Positions 1,344-41,078 of a DNA stretch of 41,078 nt are shown one piece after another. Each line of letters starts with the position of its first letter. The first letter of the stretch is position 1. Below the pieces are notes generated by a model. The model did not search any database, was not told the origin of the DNA, and worked only from the letters and a program-made list of their open reading frames with translations. Source of the stretch: a virus. The stretch covers positions 1 to 41,078 of IMG/VR virus record IMGVR_UViG_3300032046_000073; one strand, 5' to 3'. The position numbers and the translations under genes were made by a program.

Positions 1344-1498
1344 TTTTCCTCTAATTCCTTAAGTTTTTTTTGACAGAGTTCGACCTCTTCTTCCCATAAC
1401 TGCTTTTCTCTGTCATCGTGATAATTCCTTGTTTTGGGCACATTTAAAGCGGCGTCTAATCGTCGTTGCCAATAGATTTTGGGTTCTTGCCATTCCAT
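1340..1498 (-). CDS. Small hypothetical protein (52 aa)
   Basis: ATG at 1498 is preceded by GAGGT at good spacing. The product begins MEWQEPKIYWQRRLDAALNV and ends in a charged helix (EEEVELCQKKLKELEEK). It overlaps the SSB-like gene by 4 bp, so the two are translationally coupled. It follows a 110-nt leader with two strong hairpins (1512-1602). No family recognised. Confidence 0.7.
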   Translation of the reverse strand: MEWQEPKIYWQRRLDAALNVPKTRNYHDDREKQLWEEEVELCQKKLKELEEK

Positions 1499-1511
1499 TT
1501 AAACCTCGCTA

Positions 1512-1570
1512 TGGCTGGCTTGTGATGGGCGGAAGGGAATTTCACCACTTCCGACCAGTCAAACCAGCCA
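1512..1570 (-). other. Nested inverted repeat downstream of the lysin gene
   Basis: TGGCTGG (1512-1518) pairs with CCAGCCA (1564-1570), enclosing CGGAAG/CTTCCG (1530-1535 with 1548-1553). It lies just before the 52-residue gene and next to the terminator-like hairpin at 1575-1602. The outer GGCTGG/CCAGCC stem is shared with the hairpin at 8486-8554. Confidence 0.55.
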
Positions 1571-1574
1571 AGGC

Positions 1575-1602
1575 GAAGCCCCAAGCCTTCCCTTGGGGCT
1601 TC
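1575..1602 (-). terminator. Strong GC-rich hairpin after the lysin gene
   Basis: Perfect 11-bp stem GAAGCCCCAAG (1575-1585) with CTTGGGGCTTC (1592-1602) and a 6-nt loop, 7 nt after the stop of the lytic enzyme gene. There is no clear T run on the minus-strand 3' side, so termination would be partial, or the hairpin protects or processes mRNA. Confidence 0.55.
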
Positions 1603-3142: not shown

Positions 3143-3171
3143 ATTATAACATACTTATATATTTTTGTCAA
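3143..3171 (-). promoter_or_regulatory. Consensus sigma70 promoter for the RHH regulator unit
   Basis: On the minus strand TTGACA (3171-3166), a 17-bp spacer and TATAAT (3148-3143), both boxes perfect. The 17-nt gap to the ATG at 3126 holds a GAGGT ribosome site, so this mRNA has a short normal leader. Confidence 0.9.
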
Positions 3172-3228: not shown

Positions 3229-3498
3229 TCAAGCCCCCCGCAGTTTTTTAAATACAATCCCCGTCAATTCCCTCCCCGTATGTTCCTTGTCGCCGTATTC
3301 CAGTAGATGATGTGCCAGTGGACAAGTCAAAATTGTCTCGTTAAAAGTCCATAAATCCTTGCGACCTAAATAATATCTTCGCTTCCTTTTGTGGGCGAAC
3401 GAAAGTCCGCTATAACGCCAGCAGTTGTGAGGCAAGTAAAGTTCACAGGAAGTTATATTCTTATCTTCATAGATTTTTTTGAGTTTTAATTTGGTCAT
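3229..3498 (-). CDS. Small HNH-like / Cys-His protein (89 aa)
   Basis: ATG at 3498 overlaps the stop of the preceding gene (ATGA) and follows TTGGAG. The motif layout is CELYLPHNCWRYSGLSFAHKRKRRYYLG, then ILTCPLAHHLLEYG. A Cys-rich start, an A-H-x-x-K-R core and a final C-x-x-x-H-H resemble a small group of HNH-type proteins often annotated only as hypothetical in phages. I judge a nuclease or metal-binding role likely but not proven. It is last in the chain 5516-3229; the region 3127-3228 between it and the RHH gene holds the promoter. Confidence 0.6.
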   Translation of the reverse strand: MTKLKLKKIYEDKNITSCELYLPHNCWRYSGLSFAHKRKRRYYLGRKDLWTFNETILTCPLAHHLLEYGDKEHTGRELTGIVFKKLRGA

Positions 3499-3942: not shown

Positions 3943-5040
3943 TTAAACCTTTCTCATAATAAATAAATCCCTAAATCCTGCTAACATAAATTTATTCTTT
4001 CGAGCGTTTTCTATATTAGTAGCCGTATGATTTGATTGGTTACCACAATAAGAAACTACAATTCTTTGGACTGGTTCAAAATACTTTTTAAATATCTGGT
4101 AACAATCAAAACCTAAATCAATAAATTGATGCTCGCTGTAGCCGGGATTGTTGCCAATAATAAATCCAGCATATCTCCCCACTTTTAGCTTTTTAGCAGA
4201 ACTTACAGCCAAATTCTCAATCACAGCGATAAAATCCTCATATTCTAATTGTGATAAATCTGTTTTTTCTTGAGTATATTGATTTTTTTTAGCGTCAAAA
4301 TAAGGTGGGTCAAAAAAGATAAAATCAACAGAATTATTTTTTAAAGGTAACCCAGTTGTAATATCGTGTTTAATAATTTCTTTTCTTTGAGGGTTTAAAT
4401 CAAAAGCAACACACCTTCTATTCATATACTTACAAGCGTCAATATCTGTGCCAGAACCACCAAAAACAGATACTATTAAATCATTTTCTTTGGTATAAAA
4501 GTGTAGTAAATTGAGTAATATCTGGCCCGGTATACGACCCGGGTATGGTTGTCCAAATCGTGAGTCGCAAATAGGAAAATGCCAGTCAGTTTGCCACTGG
4601 AGCCAATCGGGCCAATCTTTTTTTATCTCTTCTTTTGACTGGGCGATAAGTCGTCTTAATTCTGCTTGTGGCATATGTTTTTCTTCAGCCAACTCCTTTA
4701 ATTCTCTCTTTTTACTAATTGGCAATTTTGCCTGCATAAGAGCTTCATAGTGCCAAAAAGATAACTGGTCGGTTGACCGACCATCTCTCAATTCAGGAAA
4801 ATTGGCAATGGTCAAATAAATCTTTTTCAAGGAGCTTGCCTCATACTCTAAATCCGGGTGAGTTTCTAAATCTCTGTAAATTTGTTCTTTTGGTGTATTA
4901 TAAGTATTGTGTAATTTTTCTACCTCCTCATAAACAAATCTTCCTAAATCAAAAGTGCTTTTAGCGAACCTGTTAATCCCAACAACAATCTCTTTAATTG
5001 ATGTCTGATAAGATATAATCCCAGCTTGGTTCTGTTTCAA
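3943..5040 (-). CDS. DNA adenine/cytosine-N4 methyltransferase with long helical N-terminus
   Basis: 365 residues. SAM-binding motif I is seen as VSVFGGSGTDIDAC (about 191-204), followed by CVAFDLNP, and the catalytic DPPY motif is at 244-247 (FIFFDPPYFDA). The order, SAM motif before DPPY, differs from the beta-class enzyme at 7151. Residues 1-140 are helical and rich in basic residues (SSLKKIYLTIANFPELRDGR, AELRRLIAQSKEEIKK) and may recognise DNA. It should methylate an exocyclic amine of A or C. No restriction enzyme is next to it, so host-restriction evasion is plausible. Start codon TTG at 5040 is supported by AGGAGG 5 nt upstream; it overlaps the previous gene by 47 bp. Confidence 0.85.
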   Translation of the reverse strand: MKQNQAGIISYQTSIKEIVVGINRFAKSTFDLGRFVYEEVEKLHNTYNTPKEQIYRDLETHPDLEYEASSLKKIYLTIANFPELRDGRSTDQLSFWHYEALMQAKLPISKKRELKELAEEKHMPQAELRRLIAQSKEEIKKDWPDWLQWQTDWHFPICDSRFGQPYPGRIPGQILLNLLHFYTKENDLIVSVFGGSGTDIDACKYMNRRCVAFDLNPQRKEIIKHDITTGLPLKNNSVDFIFFDPPYFDAKKNQYTQEKTDLSQLEYEDFIAVIENLAVSSAKKLKVGRYAGFIIGNNPGYSEHQFIDLGFDCYQIFKKYFEPVQRIVVSYCGNQSNHTATNIENARKNKFMLAGFRDLFIMRKV

Positions 5041-5380
5041 TTTTACCTCCTAATTCCTGAACCCAGTTAATATATTGCTCTTTTGAAAACTCGTTTTTAT
5101 TTTTAGTCCCATATTCATAAACGATAAATTTATCAAAACCATAATTTAAATAAACAAAATAAACTGGAGCAATCTTCTTTAGTTCTCTATAAACTATTTT
5201 TTCTGTTTCAGTTATTGTATCTTCACCAAAATACTTCAAATCTATAAAAGCAACTATTTTATTCTTTCGACACTCAACCCAAATCCTATCAATATCTGTC
5301 ATAGAACAATAGGGTGCTATTTCTTTGATATGAAAATCTGAATACTTGGCGTGGATAGAACTATTCGGATATTTTCCCAC
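4994..5380 (-). CDS. Hypothetical protein, possible PD-(D/E)xK-like nuclease fold
   Basis: About 128 residues from a GTG at 5380, chosen because AGGAGG lies 5 nt upstream; another GTG is at 5386. It begins GKYPNSSIHAKYSDFHIKEI. The pair TDIDRIWVE and KIVAFIDLKYFG has the spacing of D...(D/E)-x-K nuclease active sites, followed by PVYFVYLNYGFDKFIVYEYG. I infer a nuclease-like core only from this pattern. It lies between an RHH regulator and a DNA methyltransferase, a position compatible with DNA modification or defence. Confidence 0.55.
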   Translation of the reverse strand: MGKYPNSSIHAKYSDFHIKEIAPYCSMTDIDRIWVECRKNKIVAFIDLKYFGEDTITETEKIVYRELKKIAPVYFVYLNYGFDKFIVYEYGTKNKNEFSKEQYINWVQELGGKIETEPSWDYILSDIN

Positions 5381-5516
5381 CTCCACCTCCTAAATACGCT
5401 ATTATTATTTGTCTAATAAACTCACTTGTAGAACTTTTTTGTTTAGCCGCCGCAATAACAACTTCATACCATAAATCGTCATCAATTCTTAAACTTCTTA
5501 CCGGCCACTTGTCCAT
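5361..5516 (-). CDS. Second ribbon-helix-helix protein
   Basis: 51 residues, ATG at 5516 with AAGGAGG 5 nt upstream. Strand PVRSLRIDDDLW, helix YEVVIAAAKQKSS, then STSEFIRQIIIAYL: the RHH pattern of CopG/ParG-type regulators. A glycine run (GGGGG) near the end coincides with the ribosome site of the next gene. It heads the chain down to 3229 and sits downstream of the gap 5517-6038, so it may bind there; CACTTGTC-type words at about 5506 and 5561 could be operators. Confidence 0.8.
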   Translation of the reverse strand: MDKWPVRSLRIDDDLWYEVVIAAAKQKSSTSEFIRQIIIAYLGGGGGKISE

Positions 5517-5754: not shown

Positions 5755-5790
5755 CTAAAAAAGCCCTCCTAAATTGATAGGTGGGACTTC
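5755..5790 (-). terminator. Intrinsic terminator of the small RNA
   Basis: Minus-strand GTCCCACCTA, a 6-nt loop, TAGGAGGGC, then TTTTTT. The stem has one A-A mismatch. A clear rho-independent terminator. Confidence 0.8.
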
Positions 5791-5868
5791 TTTAGATGAT
5801 ATAGAGTAATCACGAGATTTCTCTCGCAACACAATATTTTTTAAATTGTGGATGATTACTCTCATCAT
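5755..5868 (-). ncRNA. Free-standing small RNA with three-way junction and terminator
   Basis: Promoter 5903-5875 should start RNA near 5868. The transcript folds simply: GAGTAATCA pairs with TGATTACTC, enclosing CACAAT/ATTGTG and a CGAGA-GAAA-TCTCG hairpin with a GNRA tetraloop. It ends with a terminator: CCC-A-CCTA paired with TAGG-A-GGG, then CTTTTTT (5755-5790). There is no ribosome site or ORF of note. Length, about 110 nt, fits a regulatory small RNA. No known family recognised. Confidence 0.7.
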
Positions 5869-5874
5869 ATTTAT

Positions 5875-5903
5875 ATCCTATCACACTTTAAATCTTTTGT
5901 CAA
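5875..5903 (-). promoter_or_regulatory. Promoter of the small RNA
   Basis: TTGACA (5903-5898), 17-bp spacer, TAGGAT (5880-5875), with a TGA extension just before the -10. No ribosome site follows; the structured RNA begins directly. Confidence 0.8.
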
Positions 5904-5911
5904 GTGCCTTG

Positions 5912-5951
5912 TAAAAAATAGCCTAGCAGGGAGGGGCAAATCCAGGCTATT
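5912..5951 (-). terminator. Terminator directly behind a -10 box
   Basis: AATAGCCT pairs with AGGCTATT (8 bp) and is followed by TTTTTT on the minus strand. It starts only about 8-12 nt downstream of the TATAAT at 5964-5959, so RNA from that promoter would be about 40 nt. It also separates the gene at 6039 from the small RNA below. Confidence 0.75.
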
Positions 5952-5958
5952 TGTCTAT

Positions 5959-6597: not shown

Positions 6598-7083
6598 TTA
6601 TATTATAAATCCGAGAATTCGACCATCGCTTCTTAAAAGCGTTCTCTGGGTTTGAAGTCCCGACCTAAAATTAGTTTCCCTGATAGTGATAGTTGACATA
6701 CTTTCATCAACTACCCAAGCAAGATGACCCGTCCACGACTCATTCGTTTTAACCACCGCCCCTATTTCAGGATAAGCGGAGTTAATCGGATTAAGTTTCG
6801 CCAAGCCATAAACGGACTTACCCGATTTCTCTCGGACAAAAGGAACGCACTGACGATTGTCCCGACTAATCACCTTTACCTGCCCCACTTTTGAAAGAGC
6901 AATTTGGTCTTCATCATACCTTGATATTCCCGATTCGATTCTGACAATCCTATCAGGAATCACCAGTTGACCTTGAACCATTTTTATTTTTGTTTCGACC
7001 CCTGTCTTTGCATTGGCGTAACTTATCTGAGCGACCATTATCAGTAAGAACAGAATTTTCAGCCACGCCCTCGCAATACACAT
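6598..7083 (-). CDS. Secreted CHAP-domain endolysin
   Basis: 161 residues from ATG 7083, chosen because AAGGAG lies 8 nt upstream; an upstream GTG at 7122 sits inside a hairpin. Residues 1-25 are a signal peptide or signal anchor (MCIARAWLKILFLLIMVAQI then SYANA). The CHAP domain follows: RQCVPFVREKSG with Cys79, the G-A-V-V step, WTGHLAWVVDE with His120, and TIRETNF with Glu136. CHAP enzymes cut peptidoglycan as amidases or endopeptidases. With its own export signal it may need the holin only for timing. Confidence 0.9.
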   Translation of the reverse strand: MCIARAWLKILFLLIMVAQISYANAKTGVETKIKMVQGQLVIPDRIVRIESGISRYDEDQIALSKVGQVKVISRDNRQCVPFVREKSGKSVYGLAKLNPINSAYPEIGAVVKTNESWTGHLAWVVDESMSTITIRETNFRSGLQTQRTLLRSDGRILGFII

Positions 7084-7101
7084 AGGCGAAAACTCCTTCC
7101 A

Positions 7102-7141
7102 TTGGGATAGCCAAATAGTCACGCTGATTCAGCTATCCCAA
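7102..7141 (-). other. 10-bp inverted repeat before the endolysin
   Basis: TTGGGATAGC (7102-7111) and GCTATCCCAA (7132-7141), perfect, 20-nt loop, no T run. On the minus strand it stands between the methyltransferase stop and the endolysin ribosome site, so it could control lysin translation, stabilise mRNA, or act as an operator. Confidence 0.6.
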
Positions 7142-7150
7142 GAAAGTCCC

Positions 7151-8473
7151 CTAAAACAATTTTTCAGGTATCTCACTTATTCGCTTATTCACCATATCTA
7201 TGTAAGATTGATTAAGTTCAATTCCGATCCAGCGTCTGCCTAACTTCTTGGCGACAACTCCAGTCGTGCCACTTCCCATAAAGGGATCAAGGACTATTCC
7301 TCCATCGAAACCAGCGTTGCACCCACAATCAGAATAACCTTTATCAATTCGCTTACTTCTTAATGCGACATCAAAAATTTCTTTTAGTGGTCGATGATGA
7401 GACATCTCACCTCTACCTTTATTTCTTGGGTCTTGCGAACTTGGATTGTAATCAGGCGGTCTTTCGGTAACCATTATCTTCTCCCTCGCCTTCCCGCACT
7501 TCTTACAGATAAACTCGGGACACCCCGCTTTAATCATCGGCTCTATCAGTTTTTCGGGGAAGGTGGCAAAGTGGGCTTCTTTAAAACTTTGAGTTGGTAT
7601 CTTCCAGACACAGCGTTTGTTGCGACCCCTATCTAAGTGAATTTGCATTACTGCATCTTTACCCCTCTCATTCATTCCGCCCTGCCAATCTCTAACCGCC
7701 GCTTTATGAGTAAGTCCAACTCTCATCGTTTCCCTTTTTGCCATATCGGTTGTTGTTTCAAATGCCTCATACTGCATCTCAAACCAATACTTCTTGGACT
7801 TACTGAAAAAGAAAACAGGCTCGTAATCAACCGTAAATCTATCTTTGACGGAGGAGGGCATACAATTCGGCTTCCACCATATTAGCGAATTTCTCAAAAT
7901 CCAATCTTGGTCATCTATCATTTTAATTACGAGGCGGTAGTTTTGAAGAAGAAGGGATTTCGCTGGATAACTTCCTCTTGCTACCCGACTTCGTCCACTA
8001 TATTCGTCATTGGATAATCTATTTTTACCAGGATTATCTCCGTGCCAAAACCCTGTCTCCAAACTTCCTTCTGAAGCATAACTATCCCCGTGATTCCAAA
8101 ACATAACTCCCGTCTTTTTAAGAACTCGTTTTAGCTCACCCGTGATTAAAAGCATTTTGTTAAGATACAAATCAAGGGTTTTTTCAAGACCGAGCTGTTG
8201 GTCAATGCGTTTAGCACCACACTTACCGCAGATTTCTCTGTAAATACCATCGCCAATACCGCCTTCAACATTTCGTTGTCCAGTATTAGCATTTTTAGAT
8301 TTTTCATCTCTAAAGTGCTGGCAATCGGAATCTCCACCCTCCCACTTAGCTGTGCCATAATCTCTCAAACCATAATAGGGTGGACTGGTAATTATTGTAT
8401 CAACAAATTCATCTGGTAAAGTTTTTAAGGTGCTTAAAGTATCTCCTTGTAAAATTGTATTTATTTTATACAT
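7151..8473 (-). CDS. Beta-class DNA amino-methyltransferase
   Basis: The catalytic motif is near the N-terminus (VDTIITSPPYYGLRDYG) and the SAM motif near the C-terminus (IVLDPFMGSGTTGVVAKKLG, then WIGIELNQSYIDM): the beta order of N4-cytosine or N6-adenine methyltransferases. Two C-x-x-C pairs (EICGKCG, FICKKCGK) suggest inserted zinc knuckles. The start is taken at ATG 8473; a TTG lies 6 nt upstream, and no strong ribosome site is visible. It stands alone between the hairpin 8486-8554 and the endolysin, with no cognate nuclease. A role in protection from host restriction is likely. Confidence 0.9.
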   Translation of the reverse strand: MYKINTILQGDTLSTLKTLPDEFVDTIITSPPYYGLRDYGTAKWEGGDSDCQHFRDEKSKNANTGQRNVEGGIGDGIYREICGKCGAKRIDQQLGLEKTLDLYLNKMLLITGELKRVLKKTGVMFWNHGDSYASEGSLETGFWHGDNPGKNRLSNDEYSGRSRVARGSYPAKSLLLQNYRLVIKMIDDQDWILRNSLIWWKPNCMPSSVKDRFTVDYEPVFFFSKSKKYWFEMQYEAFETTTDMAKRETMRVGLTHKAAVRDWQGGMNERGKDAVMQIHLDRGRNKRCVWKIPTQSFKEAHFATFPEKLIEPMIKAGCPEFICKKCGKAREKIMVTERPPDYNPSSQDPRNKGRGEMSHHRPLKEIFDVALRSKRIDKGYSDCGCNAGFDGGIVLDPFMGSGTTGVVAKKLGRRWIGIELNQSYIDMVNKRISEIPEKLF

Positions 8474-8485
8474 TTTCAAAAAGGT

Positions 8486-8554
8486 GGCTGGCGGGATTGA
8501 CTAATACCGATTGGTAAGTGTGGCATTGTGCCACAGCCGTCTTAACCGCCAGCC
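8486..8554 (-). other. Nested inverted-repeat leader before the methyltransferase
   Basis: Outer GGCTGGCGG/CCGCCAGCC (8486-8494 with 8546-8554), inner TGTGGCA-TTG-TGCCACA (8519-8535). At 69 nt with a 7-9 bp closing stem it looks tRNA-like, but the anticodon loop lacks U33 and no T arm is present. A structured mRNA leader or an operator is more likely. Confidence 0.6.
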
Positions 8555-8570
8555 AAAATCAGACAGATAG

Positions 8571-13274: not shown

Positions 13275-13303
13275 TTGACAAAAATTTATGTTTGTGATAT
13301 AAT
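13275..13303 (+). promoter_or_regulatory. Consensus plus-strand promoter of the structured RNA
   Basis: TTGACA (13275-13280), 17 bp, TATAAT (13298-13303), with TGA directly before the -10 (extended). It is the strongest promoter on the plus strand and points against all neighbouring genes. No ribosome site follows for more than 400 nt. Confidence 0.9.
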
Positions 13304-13309
13304 AAATTA

Positions 13310-13720
13310 TGAAAATTTAGTTAGCTGTGAGAAGTTCGTACGAGCTTCAGGAAATTGGCTCGCATGGTCGGCTCACAGCTAACATGCGAGCCTTTTTAAT
13401 ACGCTAACAAGAGAAGAACTCGGTTTAGCAAGTCGTAGGAGAATGTGAGAGTAGGGGTTGACTACTAAGCTGGCTCTCACAGACTGGGAAACGACTTTAA
13501 AGAAGCACCTGAAGCTCGGAATTCTCTTTTAGCATTTACAAGTTAATGTTACGAAATCTAAGTTGGAAATCATCCAGAATGAAACTTATAAAGTAGAAAA
13601 CTTGTCAAAAGAATTTTTAAGTAGCCCAGTAAAAACGGCAGTCTCACCTTCTCCGTCAAACCTGATGGGGAAGGGGGGTATTGGCAGCAAGTAGTAAATT
13701 GGTTAATTAAAATAAGTTAA
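13310..13720 (+). ncRNA. Large, highly structured non-coding RNA
   Basis: No ORF of note, but many long perfect complementarities. S1 13321-13331 with 13372-13382 (11 bp); S2 13341-13351 with 13508-13518 (11 bp); S3 13357-13366 with 13383-13392 (10 bp, then TTTTT); S4 GCTAA-c-AAGAGAA 13403-13415 with 13522-13533 (12 bp, one bulge); S5 13430-13436 with 13491-13497; S6 13445-13451 with 13474-13480; S7 13538-13544 with 13599-13605; S8 13647-13658 with 13663-13674 (12 bp, AACC loop); ACTGGG 13483-13488 with CCCAGT 13625-13630. S1 and S3 interleave as a pseudoknot, and S2 crosses S1 and S3. Size and ornate pairing recall phage-associated large RNAs such as ROOL or GOLLD, but I cannot assign a family. 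3' end uncertain. Confidence 0.85.
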
Positions 13721-13729
13721 GGTGCGAAT

Positions 13730-13903
13730 ATGAACAAATGGCGGCAGGCAATTAAAGAAAATATCTTATTGATTATCATATCTCTAATTGTGATTATAAT
13801 TTTATTTGTTATTTTTAATGAATCTGATCTCTTTCCCTTTGCTTTACTCATATTTCTTTGTGGACTTTTTCTTGGACTCAATCCTTGGAAAAGAATACTT
13901 TAA
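13730..13903 (+). CDS. Small membrane protein, only plus-strand gene (57 aa)
   Basis: ATG 13730 follows AAGGTG. MNKWRQAIKENILLIIISLI starts a first helix (LLIIISLIVIIILFVIF); a polar NESDLF turn leads to a second (FALLIFLCGLFLGL), ending NPWKRIL. It abuts the stop of the convergent 1260-residue gene. It is probably co-transcribed with the structured RNA. Function unknown. Confidence 0.65.
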   Translation: MNKWRQAIKENILLIIISLIVIIILFVIFNESDLFPFALLIFLCGLFLGLNPWKRIL

Positions 13904-40723: not shown

Positions 40724-41078
40724 TCATATTTTCCCTTCCCAAAGTATCTTTGCTTTTCTGCCCCCGTGCAATCTCCAAGTAGTCCCATCAAAACTTGGCA
40801 CTAATCCTTGTTTCCACAAATCAACAGCAGGTTTAAAAGGATAAACGCCTTTTCTGATTTTCAATTTTTTGTAATCTACATATTTCCATTCTTTTAGGAG
40901 AAATAAAGAACCAATATAAGACCAGACCGAATCCCCGACCGAATCCCCGACCGAAGCCCAGACCGAAGCCCCGACCGAATCCCCGACCGAAGCCCAGACC
41001 GAAGACCAGACCGAATCCCCGACCGAATCCCCGACCGAAGCCCAGACCGAAGACCAGACCGAATCCCCGACCGAATCC
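40724..41078 (-). CDS. Repeat protein with SV tetrads, C-terminal part (5' end cut by window)
   Basis: The frame enters from the window end in tetrads such as DSVG, ASVW and DSVW and then reads SYIGSLFLLKEWKYVDYKKL, KIRKGVYPFKPAVDLWKQGL, VPSFDGTTWRLHGGRKAKIL, WEGKI-stop (TGA at 40724-40726). It is the expected tail of the protein that begins at 647; together they would give one protein of at least 330 residues. The repeat number cannot be known from this assembly. The next gene's ribosome site lies in its stop. Confidence 0.8.
   Translation of the reverse strand, partial: DSVGDSVWSSVWASVGDSVGDSVWSSVWASVGDSVGASVWASVGDSVGDSVWSYIGSLFLLKEWKYVDYKKLKIRKGVYPFKPAVDLWKQGLVPSFDGTTWRLHGGRKAKILWEGKI
40919..41078. 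repeat. 12-bp tandem repeat array (right end)
   Basis: About 13 units, same consensus as at 1-255. 41001-41078 equals 43-120 exactly (78 nt). Array boundary toward the gene end is at ATAAGACCAGACCG. Confidence 0.95.

Follow-up and report, generated by a model that had tools for sequence, protein, structure and literature searches.

The minus-strand stretch at positions 5755-5903 of a 41,078-base virus record, referred to throughout as the window, raises two questions: does it hold an independent gene for a small non-coding RNA and, if so, how might that RNA act? Annotation pipelines search for proteins and for known RNA families, and so seldom record small RNAs encoded by phages of uncultivated hosts. 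The candidate considered here is recognisable by anatomy alone. A sequence-only reading had described a complete small-RNA gene at this locus, and every part that it named was found.

Judged from sequence, the window is a tailed double-stranded DNA phage. Its recognised genes, which include a P22-like portal, a PHROG major head protein, an intein-bearing large terminase and a phage GroEL, lie nearly all on the minus strand. Both ends of the record (1-254 and 40918-41078) lie in one 12/48-bp tandem repeat, whose GACCGAAGCC units code for DSVGDSVW repeats; a circular or permuted genome is therefore probable, with the assembly broken in the repeat. Portal and capsid searches found three related records, G001 (34.6 kb), G002 (11.7 kb) and G003 (41.5 kb), whose capsid proteins are 80-90% identical to that of the window phage. 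The nearest described phages share a portal identity of only about 21-22%.

Anatomy of the predicted transcription unit

The unit opens with a sigma70-type promoter, TTGACA-N17(TGA)-TAGGAT (5875-5903), found by sequence scan. The -35 box is perfect (5903-5898), the -10 box TAGGAT (5880-5875) matches the consensus at four of six positions, the spacer between them is 17 nt, and a TGA immediately 5' of TAGGAT makes this an extended -10 element. Transcription is predicted to start at about 5868, where base pairing in the RNA also begins; the promoter thus leads directly into structured RNA, as the sequence-only reading had it. Such a promoter would be expected to recruit host RNA polymerase. Only four minus-strand sites in the window combine these features with a score of at least 11 of 14 points, and the small-RNA promoter has the weakest -10 box among them. 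The other three lie at 3171, 10782 and 34739. Just downstream of them lie, respectively, a ribbon-helix-helix (RHH) gene followed by an HNH gene, an HNH-like gene of 187 aa, and an HNH gene within the terminase intein, as if selfish cassettes had brought their own host-type promoters.

From the predicted start, the RNA folds into a three-way junction (5868-5796). The closing helix P1 pairs 5868-5854 with 5811-5796 (15 bp, one bulge). Within it, P2 pairs 5850-5845 with 5835-5830 (6 bp) beneath a 9-nt loop, UUAAAAAAU, composed entirely of A and U, and P3 pairs 5827-5822 with 5817-5812 (6 bp) beneath a GAAA loop of the GNRA class. The junction and GNRA hairpin that had been proposed are therefore both present. 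Pair probabilities in P1-P3 are mostly above 0.9, and a single structure dominates the prediction. The minimum free energy of -44.8 kcal/mol lies far below that of shuffled sequences (-18.2 +/- 3.4; z = -7.79), and none of 200 shuffles equals it. Of 3,414 minus-strand 115-nt stretches in the window, only one folds more strongly than this locus. The minus strand folds better than the plus strand (-44.8 versus -38.2) because of three G-U pairs.

The terminator follows at once. A hairpin at 5755-5795 begins on the base next to P1 and ends in TTTTTT (5762-5757), so that most transcripts would be expected to end at about 5757, giving a unit of roughly 110 nt. The sequence-only reading called this terminator textbook. 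The hairpin and its T6 run are there, but the stem has one mismatch and one bulge, a simple terminator scan did not pick it up, and three of its inner pairs (about 0.6) are the least certain of the RNA.

How unusual this arrangement is was assessed by scanning the whole window for T-run hairpins preceded by a promoter that scores 11 of 14 points or more, with 120 Markov-shuffled genomes as control. The window contains one such unit, at 5755-5903; the shuffled genomes together yielded one weak unit (mean 0.008 per genome), and none comparably structured. As the unit is the only one in the window and is not reproduced in the shuffled genomes, its promoter-fold-terminator anatomy is real and beyond chance. 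The unit also appears to be separated from the one upstream by another terminator-like hairpin (5911-5952, minus strand), in which a 9-nt perfect inverted repeat (AAATAGCC...GGCTATTTTTT) is followed by T6; the region folds at -13.0 kcal/mol. Promoter, fold from +1, terminator and insulation can all be read from the sequence as predicted elements, and the identity of the locus as a putative small-RNA gene is well supported.

One feature runs against the earlier statement that there is no ORF: a frame of 37 codons (5755-5868, minus strand) is open from an ATG at 5868, exactly at the predicted +1, to the end of the unit. It could encode a small leaderless protein, the RNA structure being incidental, and a weak codon signal (z 1.7) points the same way. 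Against this, 43 base pairs at z -7.8 would be unexpected in coding sequence, and the frame has no Shine-Dalgarno sequence, which several recognised genes of the phage do have. Its stop codon lies behind the U-run and would be missing from terminated transcripts, and tblastn finds no relative in phages. On these grounds the frame is probably fortuitous, and a coding function for the locus is very improbable.

Relation to the neighbouring genes

The sequence-only reading placed the locus between two regulators and upstream of a methyltransferase unit. The downstream regulator is recognisable: a 51-aa ribbon-helix-helix (Arc-like) protein (5361-5516, minus strand; PHROG 6506, E 7.6e-8; RHH_1 just under the cut-off) with the ribosome site AAGGAGG. 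It is the first recognisable gene after the unit. The upstream candidate, an 84-aa ORF, matches no family, so only one of the two regulators stands. The methyltransferase is confirmed downstream, further away than the RHH gene, as an N6_N4_Mtase domain match at 3943-5040 (minus strand). In viral contigs, no relatives of these neighbours (the methyltransferase and the 130-aa and 84-aa ORFs) were found.

This arrangement brings in the chief rival to an independent gene, a terminated leader. Here the promoter would serve the downstream RHH-ORF-methyltransferase genes, the 110-nt RNA would be a by-product, and read-through, whether passive, antiterminator-aided as in lambda Q, or RNA-aided as in HK022 put, would set expression of the operon. 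Antitermination at promoter-terminator pairs is known from phages (PMC6606751; PMC9378689). Consistent with a leader, 238 nt are untranslated from the terminator (5755) to the start of the RHH gene (5516), and no sigma70-like promoter reaching 9 of 12 occurs in this interval; those further down are weak. The absence of an RHH promoter says little, however, because most genes of this phage also have no consensus promoter. Nor was a Q- or N-like protein recognised among the neighbours searched. An antiterminator switch in particular was rejected: no competing fold was found, and when the native terminator pairs are forbidden, the RNA loses about 17 kcal/mol of folding energy and keeps its junction as it was. 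Taken in aggregate, the leader is possible, at clearly shorter than even chances, and the reading that we prefer is a gene in its own right, encoding a non-coding phage RNA of only about 110 nt with a high degree of structure.

Possible mode of action of the RNA

If the locus is an independent gene, its product might pair with messages or bind a protein. The sequence-only reading leaned to the former, suggesting that the RNA perhaps acts on host mRNA or on the plus-strand RNA. In such a base-pairing RNA, the A/U-rich loop would engage host or phage mRNAs, and mRNA pairing, in many cases with Hfq, is the mode of most phage small RNAs described in a recent review (PMC12197685). The RNA here does have a 9-nt loop and a terminator with a U tail. 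The pairing predictions lend this no support. Against phage gene starts, the best duplex of the exposed all-A/U loop has -5.9 kcal/mol, and the best duplex of the whole RNA, at -36.6, falls within the shuffled range (mean -32.8, sd 3.0; 6 of 60 shuffles as good). For the plus-strand structured RNA at 13304-13740, the predicted pairing falls short of the mean for shuffles. Thus, among phage targets, no accessible seed with complementarity beyond chance was found, and regulation by base pairing is improbable.

The alternative would be an RNA that acts in trans by its folded shape, with the three-way junction, the GAAA loop and the A-rich loop presented to a protein and not to mRNA. About 86 of 116 nt are paired (43 base pairs), 30 are unpaired, and the single sizeable loop is all A/U. 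Almost all bases are thus paired, and the predicted duplexes with phage gene starts do not stand out from those of shuffled sequences, which argues, without proving it, that a protein-binding or scaffold RNA would fit better than an mRNA-pairing one. We infer a protein-binding mode solely from this scarcity of exposed sequence. Gene and mode together, an independent gene for a structured non-coding RNA of about 110 nt that would bind a protein in trans rather than pair with mRNA, come to roughly an even chance.

Conservation and genomic setting

The claim that the RNA is new held at the sensitivities used, with no match in Rfam, phages, plasmids, viral contigs or species genomes. Rfam searches returned nothing at gathering score in the window and its relatives, or at E up to 10 for the locus, and blastn of the small RNA against phages and plasmids gave nothing beyond chance. 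An exact 16-mer of the junction matched 21 times in viral contigs, and patterns of the closing helix matched nine times in viral contigs and twice in genome contigs; by covariance model, none of these is a homologous RNA. A covariance model built from the single sequence, run on the window and the three related phages, found only itself. The three relatives share the structural half of the genome and show no DNA similarity in the small-RNA region. Absence from phages with 80-90% identical capsid protein says that the RNA is private to its lineage or evolving too fast to see. It is probably a real but lineage-private phage small RNA, of a known general kind.

Other structured elements occur in the window. 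A second promoter-led RNA lies on the plus strand at 13275-13545, divergent to the neighbouring genes, behind a perfect TTGACA-N17(TGA)-TATAAT. The predicted RNA (13304-13545) is 242 nt, non-coding and folds with z -6.6. In its 5' part, the helix GTTAGCTGTGAG/CTCACAGCTAAC and the helix GGCTCGCAT/ATGCGAGCC, the latter followed by TTTTT, either exclude each other or form a pseudoknot. Rfam gave no match for this element, and phages gave no convincing one. The strongest fold of the window, at 1496-1575 (minus strand), is a two-stem element, CTGGTTTGA..TGGTCGG...CCGCCCATC.CAAGCCAG. It recurs in G001 at 7060-7175 (L035) with different stem lengths and apical parts, and looks like a conserved RNA or DNA structure. 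At 8480-8560 (minus strand), a three-way-junction fold, GGCTGGCGG...CCGCCAGCC, followed by TTTTTG, lies directly 5' of the start codon of a second methyltransferase gene, which has no Shine-Dalgarno site.

The relatives carry further structured intergenic elements. In G003, two element copies (2797-2889 and 3325-3439; L037) flank an HNH gene; their ends are conserved (AGTAAC.G.TTGGAGCGGT ... CTGCTCCAACTTGTTCCTTA) and their middles differ, suggesting a repeated or mobile structured element. Hairpins of differing sequence lie upstream of a likely replication protein in G001 (1300-1390) and G003 (4690-4810). Their loops could pair near the ribosome-binding site as a pseudoknot, and translational control is possible.

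This genomic setting, with several structured elements, may be more notable than the small RNA itself. If the RNA is real, it would point to several RNA genes in this phage group that have escaped annotation. A bolder reading, which we regard as unlikely, is that the RNA represents a new, lineage-private structural class that binds a host or phage protein by way of its GAAA-capped three-way junction, and that structured non-coding elements are unusually abundant in this phage group.

Comparison with known phage RNAs

Several familiar RNAs were set aside. No tRNA or tmRNA was found. A hammerhead ribozyme was weighed for the CUGAUGA-like start and rejected, with no GAAA after the helix in the required place and no Rfam match. 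The phi29-type packaging RNA (Rfam Phage_pRNA) resembles the present RNA: it is short, comes from a phage, and combines a three-way junction with a helix that pairs the 5' and 3' parts. It was rejected, as Phage_pRNA is not among the hits to E 10 and the phage has the domains of a conventional, intein-bearing large terminase instead of a phi29-type packaging ATPase.

Closer in setting are the lambdoid late pairs PR'-tR' and 21PR'-21tR', promoter/terminator pairs at which Q acts (PMC6606751). There, as here, a short transcript from a strong promoter is terminated before phage genes are reached. Unlike at those sites, no Q protein or Q binding element is recognised here, and a regulator and a methyltransferase lie downstream, not late genes. 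The HK022 put RNA (PMC9378689) is also a structured phage RNA that starts near a promoter, and about 70 nt before the terminator is a further shared feature. However, put consists of two stem-loops with no enclosing helix and suppresses termination, whereas the junction described here is enclosed by a 15-bp helix and runs at once into a terminator.

The nearest functional comparison is with phage-encoded trans-acting small RNAs such as lambda PreS and VpdS of VP882 (reviewed in PMC12197685). These, too, are short phage transcripts taken to act outside coding. They pair with mRNAs, often with Hfq, whereas in the RNA at 5755-5903 hardly any sequence is exposed, and no target was detected for it. 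If real, this RNA would bring a type that does not pair to a list made up mainly of base-pairing RNAs.
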